This document shows positions 29,377 through 41,198 of a DNA stretch of 42,925 bases, one piece after another. Location: positions 1-42,925 of the forward strand of contig JAGGWG010000016.1 of NCBI GenBank assembly GCA_021157605.1. Direction: 5' to 3'. The DNA is from a bacterium. GTDB lineage: Bacteria; Patescibacteriota; UBA1384; JAGGWG01. The notes beneath the pieces were generated by a model that worked only from the letters and a program-made list of their open reading frames with translations, searched no databases and was not told the DNA's origin. The position numbers and the translations under genes were made by a program. The first letter of the stretch is position 1. Each line of letters starts with the position of its first letter.

Positions 29377-29404
29377 TTGACAGAGTTTCTCTTTGGTTTA
29401 CAAT
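29377..29404 (+). promoter_or_regulatory. 16S rRNA promoter
   Basis: TTGACA (29377-29382), a 16-nt spacer and TACAAT (29399-29404). It is one of the few consensus -35 boxes in the window, in keeping with a strong rRNA promoter. The transcript would begin near 29411. Confidence 0.72.
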
Positions 29405-29455
29405 AAGTATTGCTCTCTAAATAAGTACCTTTAAAAAATAAACAGCAATGTTTTT

Positions 29456-29485
29456 GTTTAGTTCTTTCTATCGCTTCTGGGCTCT
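29456..29485 (+). other. 5' arm of the 16S precursor processing stem
   Basis: These 30 nt pair with 31290-31319 along their whole length, using Watson-Crick pairs plus a few G-U pairs. It is probably the RNase III-type stem that loops out the pre-16S. The stem ends 1 nt before the first copy of the 16S 5' sequence. Confidence 0.75.
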
Positions 29486-29520
29486 ATTTGAGAAGAGTTT
29501 GATCCTGGCTCAGGGTGAGC
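29483..29520 (+). repeat. First copy of the duplicated 16S 5' end
   Basis: 38 nt, including the bacterial 16S start GAGTTTGATCCTGGCTCAG, are identical to 29632-29669, 149 nt downstream. This copy adjoins the processing stem and is interrupted after GGGTGAGC by a 40-nt palindrome. After it, GCTGGCGG (29561-29568), the normal 16S continuation, resumes briefly. Confidence 0.9.
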
Positions 29521-29560
29521 CCTGCCTGCCTGACGGTAGGCAGGCCTGTCGGCAGACAGG
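29521..29560 (+). repeat. 40-nt double-palindrome insertion in the duplicated 16S 5' copy
   Basis: It contains GCCTGCCT/AGGCAGGC (29523-29544), an 8-bp stem, then CCTGTC/GACAGG (29545-29560), a 6-bp stem. Removing exactly these 40 nt joins GGGTGAGC to GCTGGCGG and restores the normal 16S reading. It is followed by a third hairpin GCTGGCGG/CCGCCAGC (29561-29579). Confidence 0.75.
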
Positions 29561-29705
29561 GCTGGCGGTCGCCGCCAGCGCCTTTTTGCCGATTAAGGTG
29601 AGGGTTTCCCCTTAAGTACCAGGATGTCTCTTCTATTTGAGAAGAGTTTGATCCTGGCTCAGGGTGAGCGCTGGCGGCGTACCTAATGCATGCAAGTCGA
29701 GCGGT

Positions 29706-29720
29706 CCCGTCTTTGGCGGG
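29706..29720 (+). repeat. CCCGYC-TTT-GGCGGG palindrome in 16S helix 6
   Basis: CCCGTC-TTT-GGCGGG caps the variable h6 region. It is the same element, allowing one G-U pair, as seen repeatedly in the 23S gene. Confidence 0.75.
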
Positions 29721-30377
29721 GTAGCGGCAGACGGGTGAGTAACGCGTGGGAACTTGCCCCTGTCACGGCCATAACCCACCGAAAGGTGGGCTAATAGCCG
29801 ATAGTGTGGAGGTTAAAATCTTCACTAAAGATGCGGTTTTCCGTGTCGGACAGGGAGAGGCCCGCGTCCTATCAGCTTGTTGGTGAGGTAATAGCTCACC
29901 AAGGCAATGACGGGTAGGGGGGCTGAGAGGCTGTTCCCCCACATCGGAACTGAGACACGGTTCGGACTCCTACGGGAGGCAGCAGCAGGGAATATTGCGC
30001 AATGGGCGAAAGCCTGACGCAGTGACGCCGCGTAAGGGATGAAGGCCTTCGGGTTGTAAACCTTACTAGTCCGTAAGCAAATCTTGAGCTGCGGACGAAA
30101 GCCCTGGCTAACCACGTGCCAGCAGCCGCGGTAATACGTGGAGGGCGAGCGCTACCCGGATTTATTGGGCGTAAAGGGCGCGTAGGCGTCCTGCCAAGTT
30201 TCTTGTTAAATACCAAGGCTCAACCTTGGGTTAGCGGGAAAAACTGGCAGGATAGAGGACAGAAGAGGCAACCGGAACTCGCGGTGTAGGGGTGAAATCC
30301 GTTGATATCGCGAGGAACGCCGAAAGCGAAAGCAGGTTGCTATTCTGTTTCTGACGCTGAGGCGCGAAAGCGTGGGT

Positions 30378-30409
<32 letters not shown>

Positions 30410-30480
30410 GCCGTAAACAATGGACGCTAGCTGCGGGGAGAGTCGGCCCTCTTCGTGGCGCAGGTAACCCGTTAAGCGTC

Positions 30481-30524
<44 letters not shown>

Positions 30525-30660
30525 GCGGGGGCCCGCACAAGCGGTGGAGCGCCTGGTTTAATTCGACGACAAGCGAAGAACCTTACCAGGGTTTGAAATC
30601 TTGCCGTATGTTCTTCCCGAAAGGGAGGAGCCTTCAGGCAGGACAGGTGCTGCATGGTCC

Positions 30661-30697
<37 letters not shown>

Positions 30698-31020
30698 CGA
30701 ACGAGCGCAACCCTCACCCTTAGTTATACGTGTCTAAGGGAACTGCCTGCGCAAGCAGGAGGAAGGAGGGGATGACGAGAGATCAGCATGGCCCTTATGC
30801 CCTGGGCGACACAGGCGCTACAATGGTTGGTACAAAGGGCAGCGAAGCCGTAAGGCGGAGCTAATCTTTTAAAGCCAGCCCCAGTTCGGATCGGGGTCTG
30901 CAACCTGACCCCGTGAAGCTGGAATCGCTAGTAACCGTGAATCAGCCACGTCACGGTGAATACGTTCTCGGGCCTTGCACACACCGCCCGTCACGTCACG
31001 GAAGCTTCGAGTGCCGGAAG

Positions 31021-31120
31021 CCCCGCCACTTTTGGGGTTTAGGTGTTTTTTAGGATCTTGAGTCTTGCAAAAAGAATGGTACAAAGTCTTAGTTTTCTCT
31101 AGACCCTAAAAGTGGCGGGG
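31021..31120 (+). other. Expansion segment at the tip of 16S helix 44
   Basis: Arms 31021-31038 and 31103-31120 pair over 18 bp (one G-U), beginning CCCCGCC and ending GGCGGGG. They enclose a 64-nt AT-rich insert (31039-31102). E. coli has only a short apical loop here. Confidence 0.8.
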
Positions 31121-31135
31121 TCATGGCAAGCGAAG

Positions 31136-31168
<33 letters not shown>

Positions 31169-31289
31169 GGGGAATCTGCGGCTGGACCTCCTCCTTAGTT
31201 TTAGATAGTCGACCTTGGGTTTTTCCAAGAAAGTTGTCAGCCTTACAGCTTGACTTTGGCTCAAAGCTAAGCTGTGGGTTGATTAGTTG

Positions 31290-31319
31290 AGAGCCCAGAG
31301 GCGGTAGAAAGGGCTAAAT
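31290..31319 (+). other. 3' arm of the 16S precursor processing stem
   Basis: Pairs with 29456-29485. Between the 16S 3' end and this arm, 31198-31289 holds two local hairpins, including ACAGCTT/AAGCTGT enclosing CTTTG/CAAAG. There is no tRNA in the spacer. Confidence 0.75.
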
Positions 31320-31393
31320 AGATAGTTTTAAAGGATCTCAGAATTTTCCAACCCCTCTTTTAGGTTTTTTGATATTCTTAGTTTCTTTTTTTG

Positions 31394-31402
31394 TGTTATA
31401 AT
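31394..31402 (+). promoter_or_regulatory. Extended -10 promoter of the membrane Clp operon
   Basis: TG-T-TATAAT; 18 nt separate it from ATG 31421, leaving a leader of about 12 nt that contains GAGGGG as a weak Shine-Dalgarno. Confidence 0.68.
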
Positions 31403-31420
31403 TTATATTGAGGGGCATTA

Positions 31421-31816
31421 ATGGAAACTTCTTACTTTGGATTTTGGTTTTTTTGGTATAAAACTGTTCCCAGAGAGATAGTTTTTTATTTTAAAATTCT
31501 CTACCTAAAGCTTTTAGACAGCTTTTCTATTCCTATAATTATTCGTACTTTTTTTGCTCCTTGGAAAAGAGATGAAGTTTTTGTTGAAAATGCTCCCTTG
31601 AATATACGGATATATGTTTGGGTGGGCAATTTGATTTCTCGCTTAATAGGGGCGTTTTTGCGTTCAGCTGTTTTTTTAGGTTTTGTTGTTGTTATGGTTT
31701 TGTGGGTTGTGGCGCTAATCAGTGTTCTTTGTTTTTGGCTCTTTTATCCTTTAATTGTTTTATTCTTAGGTGTTGCCGCATTATTTTATTTAGCTAAAGG
31801 ACTTTATGTTGCCTAA
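31421..31816 (+). CDS. Small membrane protein, unknown function
   Basis: 131 residues with an aromatic-rich amphipathic N-terminus (about 1-45, including PREIVFYFKILYLKLLDSFS and the motif TFFAPWKRD) and two to three membrane helices in the C-terminal half (about 70-128). I do not recognise a named family. Its stop lies 11 nt inside the following Clp-like ATPase gene, so the two are translationally coupled and the protein may be a partner of that membrane ATPase. Confidence 0.75.
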   Translation: METSYFGFWFFWYKTVPREIVFYFKILYLKLLDSFSIPIIIRTFFAPWKRDEVFVENAPLNIRIYVWVGNLISRLIGAFLRSAVFLGFVVVMVLWVVALISVLCFWLFYPLIVLFLGVAALFYLAKGLYVA

Positions 31817-34238
31817 AGATAACCACATAAATTTTAATCGTTCCTACCTTTCCTTATTAGACAAGGTGGAGAAACAGATCCAGAAACCGCTTTTTAGATT
31901 TTTAATTTATCTTCTTACTTTTATTGGAGCAGGGGGGATTTTTTATCTCTTAATAGGAATCTGTTTTTGGCCTTCTGATACTTATCTTGGTTTAGCTTTG
32001 CTTGCCCTTTTGTTTTTTGTTCTTTTAGAGGGTTATCTTGGTTATTATGGCTTTTTGAAAAATTATATTGGAAAGGTTCATTTTCATTCAGCTAATCTTG
32101 TAGATTATCTTAATTTGAATCTCTATCGTATCTTCAGAGAAGAATCTGAAAATATAAGAGTGCCGGAGTTGATGTTAAGGCTGATGCAGGAAAAAAAGGT
32201 TTTGCTTTTTTTGCAGCGTTTGGAGCTTTCCCCTTCGTGGCTAAAAGAGATTTTACTCAAAGAGAAAGAGCCTCGCTTTGCTTTAAAAAATCTTTTAGAA
32301 GAGAGTTTGGCTTTGGCTTTTTCTTTAGGAGAAAAACGGGTGGATGAGCTAATAGTTTTTTTGCTTCTTTTAGAAATCTTCCCTTTGACAGCTTCTATCC
32401 TACATCGTCAGAGAATAGAGAGAAAAGATTTGATTTTGCTTTATCGTTGGTTTAAAAATAAAAAAAGCAAAAAGATTTTTCAGGTTAGATTTACTGGTGG
32501 TATTGCCCGTGACTGGACTATAGGTTATTCGCCAATACTGGATCGTTTTGCTGTAAATTTGGCTTATCTCAAGACGGCTGAGTGGGAAACCTTAGCTCAC
32601 AGAGAGCTAAAAGAAGAGCTTGAAAATGTTTTGATTCAGAGCCGAAAAGGGAATGTGCTTTTAGTGGGCAAGCCGGGAATTGGCAAACGTTCCTTAGTGA
32701 TTGCCTTGGCTCAAGATTTGAAAAAGGGGATCTGTCCTTTTTCTTTAGCTTATAAGCGTATTTTGGAGATTAAGATGGAACAGGTTTTGACCTCAGGTAA
32801 AGATGAGGCAGGCATCAGGTCTTTATTTGGGGAAATTTTAAATGATGTCTTTAGAGCCGGTGATGTAATTCTTTATTTTGATGATTTTTCTGTTCTTTGC
32901 GGAGGCGGCAGAGCTTTGGGTAAAGCCAACCTAATAGATTTGATTTTGCCCTATCTTAAGCACCCTGCTTTTCAAATAATTGCTTCTATTTCACCTGGGG
33001 ATTATGAGCATTATATTGTCCAAAACCAATCATTGATGGAGAGTCTTAATTTTATTGAGATTAAGGAGCCAAATTACATTGAGAATTTTTTGATATTGGA
33101 AGGGGCAGCTTTGACTTTGGAGAGTAAAAGTCAGCTCTTTTTTAGCTATTTGGCTTTGCGTCAAATAATAGAGCTTTCAGAGCGTTATTTTTGGCAGGAG
33201 CCTTTTCCTATAAAATCTATCCATCTTTTAGAAAAGATTTCTCAAAAAGCTGTTGGCAGGGGTGTTGTTTTTATTACCAAGGAAACAGTAAGTAGGTTTT
33301 TTGAAGAGATAACTAAGATTAAAGTAGGTGAAGTAAGGGAAGAAGAAAAAACAATACTTTTACATTTAGAGGAGATTTTGCACGAGCGTATAGTTGACCA
33401 AAAAGAGGCAATAAAGCTTTTAGCTGAAGCTATCAGAATTAGGAGAGCAGGCATAAAGCAGGAACGCAAGCCAATGGGAAGCTTTCTTTTTCTAGGGCCT
33501 ACAGGAGTAGGCAAAACTGAAACCGCCAAAGCTATAACTGAAGCTTATTTTGGTTCTGAAGGGGCGATGGTTAGATTTGATATGAGCGAATTTCAAAACA
33601 AAAAAGATGTTTACCGCTTTATTGGCCATTTTGAGACTAATTTTCCTGGTGAGTTGATAGAGGCAGTGAAACAAAACCCTTCAGGAGTAATACTTTTAGA
33701 TGAATTCGAGAAGGCACATCCTGATATTTTGAATTTGTTTTTACAGGTTTTAGATGAAGGTTTTTTGACTGATGTTTTTGGCCAAAAGGTTTATTTTACC
33801 AACCATATTATCATAGCTACCTCAAGCGCTGGTTCTAACTATTTGGTAGAGTTGCTTAAAAAATACAAGAATTATAAGGAAGTTAGCAAGAAACTCGTTG
33901 ATTACTTAATTCAAGAGAGAGTTTTTAGGGCAGAGTTATTGAATCGTTTTAACAAAGTGATAGTTTTTAAACCTCTCGGTCCCAAAGAGATTTACCAGAT
34001 TGCTGAATTAAAATTGGCTAAGCTAAAGGAAGAGATTTACCGTTCCAAGAGGATTGAGCTAGAGGTGGCACCAGAAGTGTTGCAAAAATTAGCTAAAGCA
34101 GGTTTTAAACCTGAATTTGGCGCCAGAGAGCTAGAAAGGGTGATTAGAGAAAAGATAGAATCATTAGTGGCTCAAAAAATTATTCAGGGTCAGCTCAAAG
34201 CTGGTGCCAAAATTGTGATTCGAACAAAGGATTTGTAG
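31806..34238 (+). CDS. Membrane-anchored double AAA+ Clp-like ATPase with degenerate first domain
   Basis: 810 residues. Two membrane helices at about 30-55 and 60-85 replace the usual N-terminal domain; a helical region (about 100-220) follows. AAA-1 is degenerate: the P-loop reads GKPGIGKR (288-295) with Arg in place of Thr/Ser, Walker B is FDD (358-360), and the usual KYRG pore motif reads KDEAG. AAA-2 keeps GPTGVGKT (564-571), LLDEFEKAHPD (630-640) and an Arg-finger region (FRAELLNRFN), but the GYVG pore loop is absent (GHFETNFPGELIE instead). It is unlikely to be a conventional unfoldase; ATP use by AAA-2 in remodelling a membrane partner is an inference. Confidence 0.85.
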   Translation: MLPKDNHINFNRSYLSLLDKVEKQIQKPLFRFLIYLLTFIGAGGIFYLLIGICFWPSDTYLGLALLALLFFVLLEGYLGYYGFLKNYIGKVHFHSANLVDYLNLNLYRIFREESENIRVPELMLRLMQEKKVLLFLQRLELSPSWLKEILLKEKEPRFALKNLLEESLALAFSLGEKRVDELIVFLLLLEIFPLTASILHRQRIERKDLILLYRWFKNKKSKKIFQVRFTGGIARDWTIGYSPILDRFAVNLAYLKTAEWETLAHRELKEELENVLIQSRKGNVLLVGKPGIGKRSLVIALAQDLKKGICPFSLAYKRILEIKMEQVLTSGKDEAGIRSLFGEILNDVFRAGDVILYFDDFSVLCGGGRALGKANLIDLILPYLKHPAFQIIASISPGDYEHYIVQNQSLMESLNFIEIKEPNYIENFLILEGAALTLESKSQLFFSYLALRQIIELSERYFWQEPFPIKSIHLLEKISQKAVGRGVVFITKETVSRFFEEITKIKVGEVREEEKTILLHLEEILHERIVDQKEAIKLLAEAIRIRRAGIKQERKPMGSFLFLGPTGVGKTETAKAITEAYFGSEGAMVRFDMSEFQNKKDVYRFIGHFETNFPGELIEAVKQNPSGVILLDEFEKAHPDILNLFLQVLDEGFLTDVFGQKVYFTNHIIIATSSAGSNYLVELLKKYKNYKEVSKKLVDYLIQERVFRAELLNRFNKVIVFKPLGPKEIYQIAELKLAKLKEEIYRSKRIELEVAPEVLQKLAKAGFKPEFGARELERVIREKIESLVAQKIIQGQLKAGAKIVIRTKDL

Positions 34239-34250
34239 TCTTAAATTTTT

Positions 34251-34393
34251 TCTCCAAAGACAAAGCTAACAACAGATCCCTTTCTGACAGCCTAGTCTTT
34301 ATTACTGCCAAACCCAAAGAATCAGTCTATGACCTTATCCTTAAAGTTCTGAATAAATACTTTGGGTGGATGATTAAGAAGTTTGGGAGGTAA
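34251..34393 (+). repeat. Copy B of the dispersed 143-bp repeat (ORF tail remnant)
   Basis: Matches positions 6-148 with three substitutions. The same reading frame is present, ending at TAA 34391-34393, but no start codon or upstream coding part exists: the repeat begins 12 nt after the Clp-like ATPase stop. It is probably a duplicated gene tail or the remnant of an excised element. It fills most of the 34239-34456 intergenic stretch; the rest holds nothing recognisable. Confidence 0.85.
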
Positions 34394-34456
34394 GAGTTGT
34401 TTGGCAGTACTCAAGATTTTGTCAAGGGGTTTTGTAGAGTAGGGGATGATTTTCTC

Positions 34457-34486
34457 TTGACAAAAATGTAAAGAAAACTTTACAAT
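34457..34486 (+). promoter_or_regulatory. Promoter with embedded operator for the HTH-Hsp20 gene
   Basis: TTGACA (34457-34462), an 18-nt spacer and TACAAT (34481-34486). A perfect inverted repeat TGTAAAG-N4-CTTTACA (34467-34484) covers the spacer and the first four bases of the -10 box, a typical repressor position. The start codon is 8 nt after the -10. Confidence 0.75.
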
Positions 34487-34494
34487 AGCATTTG

Positions 34495-35163
34495 ATGGCT
34501 GATGAATTGAAAAAAAGACGCCAAGCTAAGGATTTAGCTCAAGAGAAGTTAGCAAGAAAGTTGGGTATTTCAAGACAAACATTGCATTCTTTAGAGACAG
34601 GGAAGTGTAAGCCTTCTTTGGTCCTTTTAGCCAAGATAGAAAATTTTTTTCAAACTTCTTGGCGGGATCTTTTCCCCAATATTGCTTCCCAGTATCCTTT
34701 AGCAATAAAAAAACAAACTAATCAAAATAATAAGGAGGGTTTTATGCGAAGAAGGGATTTTGAAAAATTTTTTGATTTTCACTTTCCTCATTTCAAAGAC
34801 TTCTTTGCTTTGTCTTGGCCAGAAGTGTGGGAGAAGATGGGGTTTGTGGCTAGAGTTAATTTAGTTGATAAAGGGAGTTTTTTGGAGTTATTAGTTGATC
34901 TTCCCGGCTTTAAAAAAGATGAAACAGAGGTAGAAGTAATGCCCAGGGAAGTTTTGGTCAGAGCTAAGAGAAGAGAAGAGAAAAGAGAAAAGGCAAAAGG
35001 TGTGTATTATAATGAAGCTACAGCGGCAGAGGTTTCCAGAAGAATAGCTTTGCCATCTGAAATAGATCCTGACAAAAGCAAAGCAGAGTTAAAAGACGGT
35101 CGCTTAAGGGTTGTTTTACCTAAGCTCAAGTCTCAAGAATCAAGAACTATAAAGCCTGAGTAA
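34495..35163 (+). CDS. XRE-type HTH regulator fused to Hsp20 small heat-shock chaperone
   Basis: One 222-residue frame. Residues 1-60 are a Cro/CI-type helix-turn-helix (LARKLGISRQTLHSLETGK), followed by a polar linker (about 62-83). Residues 84 onward form an alpha-crystallin chaperone (FLELLVDLPGFKKDETEVEV, then GRLRVVLPK near the end). Inside the frame, AAGGAGG (34732-34738) precedes an in-frame ATG at 34744, which would give a free 139-residue Hsp20 of normal length. So two products are likely: an HTH-Hsp20 fusion from the near-leaderless start at 34495 and Hsp20 alone. The palindromic operator over the promoter suggests autorepression by the HTH part. Confidence 0.85.
   Translation: MADELKKRRQAKDLAQEKLARKLGISRQTLHSLETGKCKPSLVLLAKIENFFQTSWRDLFPNIASQYPLAIKKQTNQNNKEGFMRRRDFEKFFDFHFPHFKDFFALSWPEVWEKMGFVARVNLVDKGSFLELLVDLPGFKKDETEVEVMPREVLVRAKRREEKREKAKGVYYNEATAAEVSRRIALPSEIDPDKSKAELKDGRLRVVLPKLKSQESRTIKPE
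34732..34746 (+). promoter_or_regulatory. Internal ribosome binding site and start for free Hsp20
   Basis: AAGGAGG, then 5 nt, then ATG 34744 in the frame of the fusion. It is one of the strongest Shine-Dalgarno sites in the window and matches the 16S 3' end. Confidence 0.75.
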
Positions 35164-35167
35164 AATG

Positions 35168-35176
35168 TGTTAAAAT
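35168..35176 (+). promoter_or_regulatory. Extended -10 promoter of clpC
   Basis: TG-T-TAAAAT ends 9 nt before ATG 35186 and sits just after the Hsp20 stop. Confidence 0.58.
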
Positions 35177-35185
35177 AAAACCTTT

Positions 35186-37828
35186 ATGAAGTGTCAACGT
35201 TGCGGAAAAAAAGAGGCGCGAGTCAAAATCACTCGTATTGTTAATGGTCAGGTAAAGACTGAGTATCTTTGTGAAGATTGCGCGGCGGAAATAAGGGGAA
35301 ATAATGGTTTTGATTTTGGTTTTGATTTTTCAGATTTATTCTCTAATTTTTTTGGCGACAGTTTTGGCGGTTCGTTTGGTTCTCCCAGCCGCAAAGAAGA
35401 GTATGATATTGAAGGATTCTTTTCCGAAAGATTAAAAGAGGTATTAGAGCGAGCGAAAAAAATAGCTGGCAACAATGGTCAAACTCAAGCAGATACAGAG
35501 CATCTTTTGTTAGCTGTTTTAGAAGATAAAGTAGCTCAGAGGATTTTGAGCAAAATAGTTGACCAAAAGAAACTCAAAGAGGAGATTAAAGGATTTATTA
35601 AAAAACACAGAGGTAAAGGCAGAAAGGAGGTGGTAGAGTTGGCTCCTCGATCTACAAGGGTTTTAGAATTGGCCTATAAAGAGGCTTATGATTTAGGTCA
35701 TTCCTATGTTGGTCCTGAGCATTTACTTTTGGCTTTGGGGCGTGAAAAAGAGGGCGTGGCTGGCCAAATTCTATCTGATTTGGGAGTGAGTTATGAAAAA
35801 ATACTGCGTCGAGTTCGCTCCCTTATTGGCGAAGGTGAGCATAAGGAGGCGGTTAAAAGCCCCACCCCTTCTTTAGACGAGTTTTCCCGTGATCTGACGC
35901 AGGAGGCAAAGGAGGGTAAATTAGACCCGGTGATTGGCAGGGAAAAAGAGATTGAGACTACGATTGAGATCTTGTCCCGTCGCACTAAAAACAATCCTGT
36001 TCTTATTGGTGAGCCCGGCGTAGGAAAAACAGCTATTGTTGAAGGTTTGGCTACTAAAATTGCTAAAGGGGAAGTGCCTCCCACTTTACAAGGCAAAAGG
36101 GTGGTAGCTTTGGATGTTTCCGCTATTTTAGCTGGTACTCAGTACAGGGGGCAGTTTGAGGAAAGGATGAAAAAGATTATTGAAGAGATCAGGGCCAATT
36201 CTGATTCTTTAATTATTTTTATTGATGAACTTCATATGATTGTTGGTGCTGGAGCTGCAGGAGAAAGTGGTGCTATTGATGCAGCTAATATGCTTAAACC
36301 GGCTTTAGCCAGAGGAGAACTGCATCTCATTGGTGCTACTACTTTAGATGAGTATCGTAAATATATTGAAAAAGATGCGGCACTGGAAAGACGATTACAG
36401 CCAATTTTGGTGCCTGAGCCTTCAGTGGGTGAGACAATAGAGATTCTTAAGGGTTTGCGGGAAAAGTATGAAGCCCACCATAAGGTTAAAATTACTGATA
36501 GTGCCTTAGTAGCAGCAGCTGAACTTTCAGATCGGTATATAAGCAACCGTTTTCTGCCTGACAAAGCTATTGATCTTTTGGATCAGGCTTCTGCAAGAAC
36601 GCGGTTAAAGATGACTATAGAGCCTGAAAAAATTAGAAAACTTGATAAACAGATTAAGGATTTAGAAAGGGAAAAAGACCAGGCGGTTTCAGCTCAGGAT
36701 TTTCGTGAAGCTGCTCGTCTTAAAAAGGAAGTTCAGGAATTGAGAGCGAAAAAGCAAAAGTTAGAAAAAAAGCATAATCTTGATCAAGCTTCAGGTTATC
36801 CGGTAGTTACTGCTGAGGAGATTGCTGAGGTTATTTCCAGAGCTACAGGTATTCCTGTATCTCGACTCAGGGAGAGTGAAAAAAAGAAGCTTTTAAATTT
36901 AGAAGAAAAAATTCACCAACGTTTAGTTGATCAAAAAGAAGCTGTGCAGGCAGTGGCTAATGCTATCAGAAGGGCAAGGGTAGGGCTAAAAGACAGGCGG
37001 CGGCCAATTGGCAGCTTTCTTTTCTTGGGACCTACAGGAGTAGGTAAAACTGAGTTAGCACGCACCTTAGCTGAAGTTCTTTTTGATAATGAAGAAGCCC
37101 TAATCCATTTGGATATGTCTGAATATATGGAAAAACATGCGGTCAGTCGTTTGATTGGTGCCCCACCCGGTTATGTAGGGTATGAAGAAGGGGGGCAATT
37201 AACAGAGCAGGTTAGACGCAAGCCTTATTCAGTAGTCCTTTTTGATGAGATTGAAAAAGCTCATCCTGAAGTTTTTAATATCCTCCTTCAGGTTTTAGAT
37301 TCTGGTCAATTAACTGACGGTCAAGGCAGAAAGGTGGATTTTAAAAATACTTTGATAATTCTGACCTCTAATATAGGATCTGATCTTATTAAAACCCAAA
37401 CTGAAAAAGAGGTGGCTGCTAAAACAGAAGCAGAAAAAAAGCGGGTTTTTGCTGAAACTAAAACAAAAATTGATAAAATTCTCACCAATTATTTCCGTCC
37501 AGAATTTATTAATCGTTTAGATGAAATTATCTTGTTCCATCCTTTAGGCAAAAAAGAGATTTTGGAAATTGTTGATTTGCAGTTGGAGACGACTAAAAGG
37601 ATTTTAAAAGGTCAGAGAATAGAGCTTGAGATTTCCAGAGCAGCTAAAAAATATCTGGCTGAAAAAGGATATGACTCCACTTTTGGAGCCCGTCCCTTAA
37701 GGAGGTTGATTCAAACAGAAATAGAGAACCATCTGGCTGAGGAACTTTTAAGGGGCAAGTTTAAAAAAGGAGATAAAATAAAAGTTGATCTCAAAAAGGG
37801 AGTTTTAATTTTTAAGAAGAGTAAATGA
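35186..37828 (+). CDS. clpC: ClpC-type AAA+ unfoldase with N-terminal zinc ribbon
   Basis: 880 residues. An N-terminal zinc ribbon (C3, C6, C29, C32) of McsA type and a Phe/Gly-rich linker (about 40-68) precede the ClpC order: Clp-N repeats (about 78-215), AAA-1 with GEPGVGKT (275-282) and pore motif QYRG, a short middle domain with a UVR-like [14 protein letters not shown], and AAA-2 with GPTGVGKT, pore loop [11 protein letters not shown] and [10 protein letters not shown]. All catalytic and pore elements are intact, unlike the membrane Clp upstream. In Firmicutes McsA is a separate adaptor; here the ribbon is part of the chaperone. It probably feeds ClpP, which is not in the window. Confidence 0.93.
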
Positions 37829-38073
37829 TAATTGTTTGGCGTTTTCTTTTTTTCTGTCTTGCTGTTTTGGTTGGAGTTTTGTTTGTAGTAAAAAGTGATT
37901 ATTTTGTTCGCCTTTTTGGACACAATGAACTAGCAGAGCGTTATTTAGGAGGAGGGGGGACTTATTGGTTTTGGAAGTTGTTGGGTTTGGCGCTAATTGT
38001 TTTAGGTTGTTTAGCTTTGGTAGGGTCTTTGGATTTTGTTTTTTATCCTTTCGGCTCTTATCCTTCTGATTAA
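37825..38073 (+). CDS. Small two-helix membrane protein, unknown function
   Basis: 82 residues with two predicted membrane helices (about 5-22 and 48-70) joined by a loop containing GGGGTYWFWK. The start ATG overlaps the clpC stop (ATGA), so it is the last gene of the clpC unit. No family recognised; the size and hydrophobicity profile support a real gene, and the overlap supports co-translation. Confidence 0.7.
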   Translation: MIIVWRFLFFCLAVLVGVLFVVKSDYFVRLFGHNELAERYLGGGGTYWFWKLLGLALIVLGCLALVGSLDFVFYPFGSYPSD

Positions 38074-38102
38074 TAGTTTTCCACAATCTCTGTATTGGCA
38101 GT

Positions 38103-38129
38103 TGTCTTGAATTTTTGTATGCTAATAAT
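38103..38129 (+). promoter_or_regulatory. Possible promoter of the mechanosensitive-like gene
   Basis: TTGTCT (38103-38108), a 15-nt spacer and AATAAT (38124-38129). The predicted transcript start (about 38136) coincides with the base of the following hairpin. Confidence 0.45.
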
Positions 38130-38134
38130 TAAGC

Positions 38135-38169
38135 AATCCCGTTTTGAGTTTTTAAGAAACGGGATTTTT
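38135..38169 (+). terminator. Hairpin plus T-run: terminator of the clpC unit or 5' leader hairpin
   Basis: A 10-bp perfect stem AATCCCGTTT (38135-38144) / AAACGGGATT (38157-38166) with a 12-nt loop and a T-run to 38169. It has the form of an intrinsic terminator, but also lies at the predicted 5' end of the next mRNA, so it may have a dual role. Confidence 0.7.
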
Positions 38170-38205
38170 GCCAAAGAAGGATTTAAAAACTAAGAAGGAG
38201 GCAAA

Positions 38206-38913
38206 ATGGTAAGTATTTGGAGTTCAGCATTGCAAGAGGCTTATCAAGAGGTTTTTGTCCGTTTGGGAGATTTTGTTCCCCGTCTTTTTGGTGCTGTAGT
38301 TGTTTTTGCTGTTGGCTGGTTGGTGGCTTGGTTGTTGCAACGGTTGGTAGACCCTGTTTTAAGAGGAGTGCTTGATCCTGTTTGGGAGGTGACTAAGCTT
38401 GAGGATTTGCGCAAGAAATCCAAAATTCAGTTGGATCTAACTGCTTTGGCGGCTCGCTTAGTCTTCTGGGTGGTTTTGGCAGTAGTCTTTTTGGCTACTT
38501 TTGAGGTGCTTGGTTTGAGCAGTGTGGCAGATCTCTTTAATCAGGTTTTGGCTTATGTGCCTAATGTAGTTGGCACATTAGTTATTTTAATGATTGGTTT
38601 GGTGTTGGCTAATTTTTTGCGGGGCACAGTTAGGGCAGCGATGAATGCTTCAGAGCTTCCTCATGCACAGCTTTTGAGCAGTATTACTTATTGGGCTGTG
38701 GTTGTTTTTGTTGTTGTTGCTGGTTTGATCCAGTTGGGTATTGCTCAAGAGCTTTTGCTCATTCTCTTTCAAGGGTTGGTAGCCGCTTTGGCTATTGCTG
38801 TTGGTCTTTCTTTCGGATTTGGAGGACAGGATTATGCCAAGAGAGTTTTGGGTGTTTTTCAGAAAGAAATGACAGAGGAAGAGAGAGAAGAAGAGGAAGA
38901 TGAGGAGATTTAG
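38206..38913 (+). CDS. Membrane protein with conserved TM-helix repeats (mechanosensitive channel-related)
   Basis: 235 residues with about five hydrophobic helices. Two halves repeat the same pattern of an amphipathic segment then a glycine-rich helix (FVPRLFGAVVVFAVGWLVAW near residue 25; YVPNVVGTLVILMIGLVLAN near residue 117), the conserved TM-helix repeat seen in CmpX/MscS-related proteins. The C-terminal helix AIAVGLSFGFGGQDYAKRV resembles the MscS pore helix, but the large MscS cytoplasmic domain is replaced by a short Glu-rich tail. It has a strong AAGGAGG 7 nt before ATG. A role in osmotic response is an inference. Confidence 0.8.
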   Translation: MVSIWSSALQEAYQEVFVRLGDFVPRLFGAVVVFAVGWLVAWLLQRLVDPVLRGVLDPVWEVTKLEDLRKKSKIQLDLTALAARLVFWVVLAVVFLATFEVLGLSSVADLFNQVLAYVPNVVGTLVILMIGLVLANFLRGTVRAAMNASELPHAQLLSSITYWAVVVFVVVAGLIQLGIAQELLLILFQGLVAALAIAVGLSFGFGGQDYAKRVLGVFQKEMTEEEREEEEDEEI

Positions 38914-38938
38914 AGTTAAAGCAAAAATTAGAATGAAT

Positions 38939-38969
38939 AGATTGGGGGGAGTTTGTCTCCCCCCAATCT
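38939..38969. terminator. Strong perfect hairpin between convergently read-through genes
   Basis: A 13-bp perfect stem AGATTGGGGGGAG / CTCCCCCCAATCT with a 5-nt loop (TTTGT). There is no strong T-run on either side, so it is either a T-poor terminator of the upstream gene or an RNA-stability or pausing element before the pyruvyl transferase gene, whose ATG is 17 nt downstream. Confidence 0.6.
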
Positions 38970-38986
38970 TGTAAAAAGGTTTGTAA

Positions 38987-40165
38987 ATGAACAGCAATAA
39001 TAAGGTCAAGATATTTCTTAGAGGTGCATATAATAGTTTTAATCTTGGTGATGATCTTTTATTGTTTGGGGCTTTAGGTTTTTTAAAAGAATTGAAAAAA
39101 AAGGAAAAGAGAAAACTTGAAGTTTATATCCATAAAGGACAAAAGAGTTTTTGGAAGCTTAACTTTCCTTACACTCTGCCTTTATTTTCTTCTGCAGCTT
39201 CTTTGGTACACCAGTGGGAGAAAGAAGAGAGACGTTTGTCTCAATCCGCTTTTTGGTTTAGGCGTTTTAGAAAAATTGTTTTAGTTTTCAAAATAGGTTT
39301 AAAGTTGTTGTTTCCTTTTTGGTCTTTTCCTGAGATTCGTTTTTACCGTTCTTTAGATATAGTTTGGTTTTTAGGGGGAGCTTATTTGAATTCTTTTAGC
39401 CGTTCTTTTCTTTATTTAGAGTACTTTAATCTTGTTTTTGCCAAAAGAGTTAATTTCAAGCTTAAAGTTATAGGTAGCGGTATGCAGTGGGGTCCTTTCA
39501 GGAGCAGGTTTGATATTTGGGTGGCAAAAAGAATGGCTTTTTTGTTTGATAAAATTATTGTTAGAGACAAAAAATCTTTTGCGCTTTTGCGTTCTTGGGG
39601 GGCAAAGGTAGAATTGGGTGAAGATGATTTGTGGCTAGGAGTTCCATTTTTTAAGCAGTATAGATCGGTTAACAAAAAGGGTATTGCTTTGAACTTGCGT
39701 TTTCGCTCAGGAGAACCGTCGAAAAAACAAAAACAAGATTTGAAAAAGTTTTTACTCTCACTACCTTTTTCTTTATCAAGAGCTGTTTTCTTTTCTTTGC
39801 GGGAGAGAAGGTTTTTTGAAGATCGGCGTCTTCTTGCTCAAATTGATCTTCCCTCGTTAAAAATAGTTAATCCTTATAAAGTGGGATGGAGAGTGTTTGT
39901 ACAGGAGCTCTCCTCTAAAAAAGAGGCTGTGGGAGGAGCTTTTCACTTTATTTTGCTGGCTTTGTTTTTAGGACTTAGAGGATATCTTTTTTTTACAGAT
40001 GCCTATTATTGCCAAAAATATCAAATTTTGCCAAAACTAAGAGTTGCCAACAAGAAGGGTATAAAGGTTGGTTTCTTGTCACCTTTAGACTCTGGGGAAA
40101 TAGAAAAAAGATACGCAAAACACCGGGTGCATTTAGAGAGAATTTTCTCAGGGATAATCTCTTGA
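38987..40165 (+). CDS. Polysaccharide pyruvyl transferase family protein
   Basis: 392 residues resembling the CsaB/WcaK family, which adds ketal-linked pyruvate to surface polysaccharide. It has the N-terminal GAYNSFNLGDDLLL (like GxxNxGD), GGAYLNSFS (about residue 135), GSGMQWGPF (about 165), IIVRDKKSFALLRSWGAK (about 195-210) and LGEDDLWL. Pyruvylated glycans anchor SLH-domain proteins in some bacteria, but no SLH protein is seen here. It lies away from the main polysaccharide cluster. Its stop codon overlaps the -35 box of the 23S promoter. Confidence 0.83.
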   Translation: MNSNNKVKIFLRGAYNSFNLGDDLLLFGALGFLKELKKKEKRKLEVYIHKGQKSFWKLNFPYTLPLFSSAASLVHQWEKEERRLSQSAFWFRRFRKIVLVFKIGLKLLFPFWSFPEIRFYRSLDIVWFLGGAYLNSFSRSFLYLEYFNLVFAKRVNFKLKVIGSGMQWGPFRSRFDIWVAKRMAFLFDKIIVRDKKSFALLRSWGAKVELGEDDLWLGVPFFKQYRSVNKKGIALNLRFRSGEPSKKQKQDLKKFLLSLPFSLSRAVFFSLRERRFFEDRRLLAQIDLPSLKIVNPYKVGWRVFVQELSSKKEAVGGAFHFILLALFLGLRGYLFFTDAYYCQKYQILPKLRVANKKGIKVGFLSPLDSGEIEKRYAKHRVHLERIFSGIIS

Positions 40166-40190
40166 CAGGAAAAAGAAAGGGGGGTAGAAT
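40162..40190 (+). promoter_or_regulatory. 23S rRNA promoter
   Basis: TTGACA (40162-40167), a spacer of exactly 17 nt and TAGAAT (40185-40190). It is the best consensus promoter in the window and overlaps the end of the preceding CDS. The transcript would start near 40197. Confidence 0.82.
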
Positions 40191-40227
40191 TTTTAACAGA
40201 GGTTTTTATGATAAAAGTAAAATTTAA

Positions 40228-40301
40228 GGAGGCCACTTAGGTGTATTTTTAAGTTTTTGAAGGTATGCCTAAGTCTGGTCTCTCTGGGGCCAGATTTTTT
40301 T
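40228..40301 (+). ncRNA. Structured leader before 23S with terminator-like and antiterminator-like hairpins
   Basis: Terminator form: TCTGGTC (40274-40280) / GGCCAGA (40288-40294) followed by seven T. Competing form: 40236-40245 pairs with 40264-40273 (10 bp, two wobbles), extended by GGAGGCCA (40228-40235) pairing with TGGTCTCT (40276-40283), which would consume the 5' arm of the terminator. This is either an attenuator on the rRNA transcript or the end of a separate small RNA. Confidence 0.5.
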
Positions 40302-40623
40302 AGCAGAAAGCACTTTGAAAAGAGAGTAGATGATCCTGCCCTAATTCCTTTAGGGCAAAGCGCAAGGCAGATGGTGGATGCCTTGGTAGCAAAAGTCGAC
40401 GAAGGGCGTGGTAGGCTGCGATAAGCCTCGGGGAGTGGCCAAACACACTTTCATCCGAGGATTCCCGAATGGGGAAACCCACTCTGCTGTTGAGGCAGAG
40501 TACCTCTGCTTTTAGCAGGGGGGAGAACCCGGCGAACGGAAACATCCAAGTAACCGGAGGAAAAGAAATCAAAAGAGATTCCCTTAGTAGCGGCGAGCGA
40601 ACAGGGAAGAGCCTAAACTCCGT

Positions 40624-40942: not shown

Positions 40943-41104
40943 ATGACCACGTGCCTTTTGGAGAATGAGCCCACGAGTTACCTTTAAGGGCAAGCTTAAT
41001 CCCACTGAGTGGGGAGAGGCGTAGGGAAACCGAGTCTGAATAGGGCGTTAAGTCCTTGGAGGTAGACCCGAAACCGGGTGAGCTACCCCTGAGCAGGGTG
41101 ATCC

Positions 41105-41119
41105 CCCGCCTTTGGCGGG
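41105..41119 (+). repeat. CCCGCC-TTT-GGCGGG palindrome in 23S
   Basis: Exact form of the element, extended by two further C-G pairs on each side. Confidence 0.85.
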
Positions 41120-41198
41120 GGGGAGGCCCGAACCCAATCCGGCGGCAAACGGATGGGATGACTTGGGGGTAGGGGTAAAATGCCTATCGAACCCGGAA

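Follow-up and report, generated by a model that had tools for sequence, protein, structure and literature searches.

The window analysed here is the whole 42,925-nt stretch of contig JAGGWG010000016.1 (GenBank assembly GCA_021157605.1), which belongs to the 575-kb, 22-contig draft genome of a member of the Patescibacteria; in total, 575,428 of the 575,489 nt of this genome were read, in stretches. The 16S rRNA gene, single-copy in the assembly, is preceded in the window by a second copy of its own 5' end. The features of the locus are as follows.

29377..29404, + strand: sigma-70-like promoter TTGACA-16-TACAAT, 5' of both copies (a consensus match only; one found, 0.6 expected in shuffles)
29453..29485, + strand: 5' strand of the pre-16S processing (leader-trailer) stem, pairing with 31290-31322 (score 51 versus a null maximum of 31)
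29483..29520, + strand: copy 1, the putatively displaced 5' end or mimic, with 16S nt ~1-34 plus ~4 nt of leader (38/38 identical to 29632-29669)
29521..29560, + strand: 40-nt double palindrome of the family CCTGCCTGNCGGCAGNCAGG (sequence and family search)
29561..29579, + strand: perfect hairpin GCTGGCGGTCGCCGCCAGC followed by GCCTTTTT, terminator-like (one such found, 0.8 expected)
29570..29581, + strand: antisense A, CGCCGCCAGCGC, complementary to 16S nt ~34-45 at 29668-29679 (counterpart CGCCGCCAG in genomes G353 and G414)
29593..29615, + strand: hairpin TTAAGG...CCTTAA between antisense A and B (sequence)
29619..29634, + strand: antisense B, CCAGGATgtcTCTTCT, with equal complementarity to copy 1 and to the 5' nucleotides of 16S (complementarity and folding)
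29632..29669, + strand: copy 2, the 5' end continuing into the intact gene (repeat and Rfam)
29636..31197, + strand: intact 16S rRNA gene, full Rfam SSU model (1440.5 bits, model positions 1-1533)
31290..31322, + strand: 3' strand of the processing stem, pairing with 29453..29485

The two copies of TCTATTTGAGAAGAGTTTGATCCTGGCTCAGGGTGAGC are identical at all 38 positions and lie 149 nt apart from start to start, exactly as the first-pass annotation had described. A repeat search gives the pair as a 47-nt family with 94% identity, as sequence beyond the break is included, and the similarity is far above chance (local alignment score of 79 versus approximately 23 for shuffled flanks). Copy 1 breaks at 16S nt 34/35 (E. 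coli numbering) and runs into an insert made up of two adjacent palindromes, GCCTGCCTGACGGTAGGCAGGC (29524-29545) and CCTGTCGGCAGACAGG (29545-29560). The statement that removal of this insert restores the 16S reading was borne out; the reading resumes through GCTGGCGG, which directly follows the insert and also forms the left arm of the perfect hairpin. It was likewise correct that copy 2 leads into the intact gene, since the complete SSU model matches from copy 2 on, so that the insert does not interrupt the 16S rRNA in use. At the gathering threshold, an Rfam scan of the leader and insert returned only SSU rRNA, with one chance-level miRNA hit below it. Two leader segments that the first-pass annotation had missed are complementary to the 16S start, which gives the layout copy, antisense, gene; the full order within the 33-nt processing stem is copy 1, palindromes, hairpin with antisense A, hairpin, antisense B, and gene.

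The palindrome family CCTGCCTGNCGGCAGNCAGG occurs at five loci in the genome, as several near-identical palindromes at unrelated sites. Each of the five is found in a truncated 5' copy of an RNA gene that precedes its intact counterpart by up to ~300 nt; the genes are 16S and the following four tRNAs.

tRNA-Met, C11:42896: truncated copy with ~10 nt of shared leader, 312 nt upstream; its D-loop holds the palindrome, and a GIY-YIG ORF follows
tRNA-Leu(gag), contig C7: truncated upstream copy with palindrome
tRNA-Leu(tag), contig C11: truncated upstream copy with palindrome
tRNA-Ser(cga), contig C11: truncated upstream copy with palindrome

The 400-nt zones 5' of RNA genes together cover 2.2% of the genome, and five of five loci would fall in them by chance with a probability of ~5e-9. 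In the four tRNA copies the palindrome lies in the D-loop or replaces part of it. The upstream copies of tRNA-Ala(ggc) and tRNA-Glu(ctc) carry other hairpins, and the tRNA-Asp gene (L118, G000:C11:33900-34460) is flanked by the two pieces, 5' and 3', of a variant tRNA-Asp that is split; the pieces overlap by ~43 nt and have a mini GIY-YIG gene between them. Similar fragments thus accompany seven RNA genes besides 16S, on different contigs, and 7 of the 8 RNA-gene fragments of the genome carry a hairpin. The two non-UvrC GIY-YIG genes, one at tRNA-Met and one at tRNA-Asp, each separate a tRNA fragment from the intact tRNA; the third GIY-YIG match is probably UvrC, judging from its 424-aa open frame. 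These tRNA loci are the only ones with such an ORF, the 111-nt insert at 16S having none, and neither an endonuclease nor a transposase was found at the 16S locus. Identification of the palindromes as REP elements with a RAYT was rejected because the genome has no Y1 transposase (PF01797), for which 5 of 14 control genomes were positive.

Across the phylum, the palindrome family was found in 26 of 99 sampled Patescibacteria genomes, with many copies not in RNA genes. Palindromes also occur in tRNA fragments beside the intact gene at L126 (tRNA-Gly), L130 (tRNA-Ala), and L137 (tRNA-Leu). At L168 (tRNA-Pro, genome G001) and L130 (tRNA-Ala, genome G034), the intact tRNA sits inside another tRNA of its kind, whose two halves are separated near the anticodon. 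In other members of the class, GIY-YIG genes lie near tRNAs at 16 of 32 loci; a tRNA fragment, by the threshold used, is present at only 6 of the 32, which makes endonuclease homing a lead rather than a general rule.

Large close-range copies of the 16S start are rare. Among 380 genomes of the phylum, 327 of which gave a 16S 5' match, only G353, from another class of Patescibacteria, has one besides the present genome; a few genomes with a second match listed without coordinates, and hence without an assigned position, stand outside this count. A scan of the relatives of G353 added G414, which belongs to another family. The comparison with relatives proposed in the first-pass annotation thus yielded the same architecture twice. 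In G353 and G414, a second copy of 16S nt 1-34 lies 125 or 121 nt upstream and ends at the same break (GAAC|GCTGG). A hairpin comes directly after it, then a second hairpin with CGCCGCCAG as its right arm, complementary to 16S from nt ~36-37 to nt ~45 (16 nt of complementarity in G414, CGCCGCCAGCGTTCAT), a further antisense beginning GGTTTATC, and the intact gene. The palindrome family CCTGCCTGNCGGCAGNCAGG is absent from both inserts. Between the two genomes, copy 1 is identical at 35 of 35 positions, the spacer at 60 of 92 columns (~65%), and the upstream leader at 78 of 137 (~57%); hairpin P2 is kept despite three double-sided changes, and copy 1 and antisense form a 10-pair helix that takes in a copy-specific C after nt 34. 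Selection on the RNA could account for this pattern, and so could recent insertions of diverged elements that took place separately. Shorter 16S copies followed at once by a hairpin were found in G103 (nt 1-26) and in G267 and G009 (to about nt 15), and the leader of G003 holds a 20-nt copy of the 16S start. The leaders L012, L031, L020, and L006, all of one family, contain a short mimic of the 16S start, and the first three (f15) also have a strong, long antisense hairpin. Beyond these cases, no general excess of copy-like or antisense segments was found across leaders, most thresholds being near an expectation that is itself inflated, as the conserved 16S start of one genome matches the copy of another.

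Comparison of leader sequences shows that copy 1 holds the ancestral place in G414. In its relatives without the insert (L295, L296, L301, and L306), a conserved leader ending in GTTCGACTGAAG is followed by some 14 to 16 nt and then directly by 16S, and in G414 the same leader runs into copy 1. Since it abuts copy 1 just as it abuts 16S in the relatives, copy 1 occupies the ancestral position, and copy 2 and the spacer were added. In the present window, too, copy 1 is probably ancestral and copy 2 re-created downstream. The compared genomes include no close relative with an empty site, since the same-family genome G001 gave no 16S match; a pattern scan of genome contigs for close relatives returned only unrelated Nitrospira and Chloroflexi records. 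The order of events proposed at first, palindrome insertion followed by re-creation of an intact end, is supported in its second part. For the palindrome as the first step no evidence was found, and in G353 and G414 other hairpins follow the same break.

The length of the resulting leader is not exceptional. The processing stems of relatives end 4 to 286 nt before 16S, which contradicts the initial expectation of a mature end right at the stem, and the E. coli 16S precursor carries 115 extra 5' nucleotides that are trimmed off (PMC3996153). A structured leader of 150 nt is therefore ordinary, and the reading of the 149-nt extension as an abnormality was rejected.

In E. coli, the 5' end of pre-16S (17S) rRNA undergoes an h1' to h1 helical switch (Young and Steitz, 1978, and Dammel and Noller, 1993, as cited in PMC3996153), to which RbfA is genetically linked (PMC3996153). 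The present leader resembles this system in that the segment just 5' of 16S (29619-29634) is complementary to the 16S start, with which such a segment pairs and which it must release in assembly, and in that the long 5' extension lies inside the leader-trailer helix. It differs in having a second full copy of nt 1-34 that competes for the same antisense, in an antisense that reaches nt ~45, and in hairpins inserted at nt 34/35 of the copy. When the leader alone was folded, the mean pairing probability between copy 1 and the antisense was 0.51, 0.72, and 0.65 in the present genome, G353, and G414, respectively; with 50 nt of 16S added, the real 5' end paired with the antisense at 0.49, 0.61, and 0.71. 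Folding thus predicts that the antisense pairs first with copy 1 and then switches to the real 16S 5' end. As any copy-antisense-copy layout folds as a switch, this prediction is not independent evidence of function, and a decoy role for copy 1 in pre-16S folding is possible but unproven. Patescibacteria lack many ribosome assembly factors (PMC12641178). An RbfA-like ORF was found in the genome (phmmer E value of 1.3e-7, with an approximate query sequence), which is consistent with a working switch and led to rejection of RbfA absence as an explanation.

On balance, the observations slightly favor a hairpin-bearing insertion at nt 34/35 that rebuilt the 16S 5' end, with maturation at copy 2, copy 1 as at least physically a decoy, and a recurrent process at RNA genes. 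Copy 1 would be the old 5' end, split off by a short hairpin-bearing insertion, as the comparison with other genomes suggests. Nucleotides 1-34 would have been re-created downstream, either simultaneously or by selection immediately after, and the two steps were probably one event, so that the working 16S starts at copy 2. A single transcript would carry copy 1, palindromes, antisense segments, and copy 2 within the leader-trailer stem, and trimming of the leader, as is usual, would leave the mature end at copy 2. The antisense may pair with copy 1 in a multibranch leader domain and move to the 16S 5' end once this is transcribed, as an enlarged h1'/h1 switch. The insertion may be part of a process that repeatedly strikes structured RNA genes in the lineage, as suggested by the palindromes in truncated 5' tRNA copies and by the GIY-YIG genes between fragment and gene at two tRNA loci. 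Weighing against this reading are the rarity of large close-range copies, the negative results for an endonuclease or transposase at 16S and for a Y1 transposase in the genome, the absence of the palindrome family from the G353 and G414 inserts, and the lack of an empty site in a close relative among the genomes compared. Such an event would let a palindromic repeat invade a cell's sole 16S gene without lethal effect, and it suggests that essential RNA genes are repeatedly split and rebuilt throughout the phylum. The general form of this proposal is considerably more tentative: in Patescibacteria, hairpin elements, sometimes with a mini GIY-YIG gene, may insert into the 5' part of 16S and tRNA genes in a gene-sparing event that rebuilds this part, the leftover at 16S now being a switch decoy. 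If copy 1 is indeed a decoy, the locus would represent a natural, testable helical switch of the pre-16S 5' end with a third competing strand.

Alternatively, copy 1 could have been selected as a functional leader element, a decoy that keeps the antisense occupied during the early folding of the 16S 5' domain, with the palindromes as stems; such an element could be ancient and lost in most lineages. In all three genomes copy 1 matches the gene at 100% identity, while between G353 and G414 the spacer has diverged, hairpin P2 still pairs with changed sequence, the copy-specific C takes part in pairing, and the f15 leaders combine a mimic with a strong antisense. However, most leaders have no such element (large close-range copies in 2 of 327 genomes), copy 1 is identical even where it is unpaired, and recent independent insertion of diverged elements would also leave it identical. 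This reading is rather unlikely.

Somewhat less probable still is that the arrangement is neutral debris. In this view, template switching or repair at the 16S start, which forms hairpins, produced a partial duplication, and a dispersed palindrome later struck the broken copy, which was free to change. Template switching at a fold-back yields copy, antisense, and copy, the string GCTGGCGG-T-CGCCGCCAGC resembles a turn-around, and the palindrome family is dispersed among genomes, often outside RNA genes. Against this stand the same 34/35 break and order of parts in distant genomes, the divergence of the antisense but not of copy 1, and the hairpins in nearly all RNA-gene fragments of the genome, above what a neutral hit rate would suggest. 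The spacer does not repeat the upstream leader, and a simple tandem duplication was rejected on this ground.

Intron-like removal of the RNA from nt 34 of copy 1 to nt 34 of copy 2, with copy 1 giving the mature 5' end, would produce an identical 16S from a copy that adjoins the processing stem, but the leader has no match to group I, group II, or other Rfam introns and trimming at copy 2 requires no new step, which makes this reading very improbable. Least probable of all is an error of assembly, with two strain variants joined or the contig chimeric: the assembly is a draft and assemblers err at palindromes and repeats, but the architecture recurs independently in G353 and G414, like layouts occur at seven more RNA genes here, and the spacer is unique sequence.

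No description of the present arrangement was found in the literature searched, which included only a minority of subscription journals. Rickettsia palindromic elements enter genes, including the RNA genes for tmRNA and RNase P RNA (PMC2229807), and like other small bacterial palindromic repeats (PMC2229807) they share with the present family a dispersed occurrence and entry into RNA genes. They are 105 to 146 nt long and tolerated inside working genes (PMC2229807), whereas the elements here are 20 to 40 nt long and lie in a dead 5' fragment beside the intact gene. Insertions in the 16S of CPR bacteria, some with GIY-YIG genes and often at the top or base of a stem-loop, concern the same phylum (PMC11270868); the text of that report mentions no duplication, tRNA, or palindrome. 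They lie within the rRNA, whereas the present insertion lies in the leader of a gene that was probably rebuilt downstream.

For fungal mitochondria, truncated copies of genes next to their intact versions were reportedly described by Paquin in 1994. Truncated copies of atp6 and atp9 adjoin the intact genes there (PMC4162613); the genomes concerned have many GIY-YIG endonucleases, and some also contain hairpin elements. The genes concerned are organelle protein genes, in contrast to bacterial 16S and tRNA genes, so this parallel is a lead by analogy only.

Several further features of rRNA genes were observed. At L329 (G039:C2:366380-366592), a GIY-YIG gene lies ~100 nt inside a 16S gene. In the window, 16S and 23S are separated by ~9.2 kb (31197-40353) with several protein genes, two of them Clp-type ATPases judging by sequence; this departs from the usual single rRNA operon. 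Near 16S helix 44 (31021-31120) there is an insertion-like extension with a 22-nt inverted repeat (91%) and a 56-nt loop. The 16S 3' end (31180-31197) reads GGCTGGACCTCCTCCTTAG, without the usual TCA of GGATCACCTCC, which indicates an altered anti-Shine-Dalgarno tail. The 23S gene contains a perfect palindrome, CCCCCGCCTTTGGCGGGGG, at 41103-41121.
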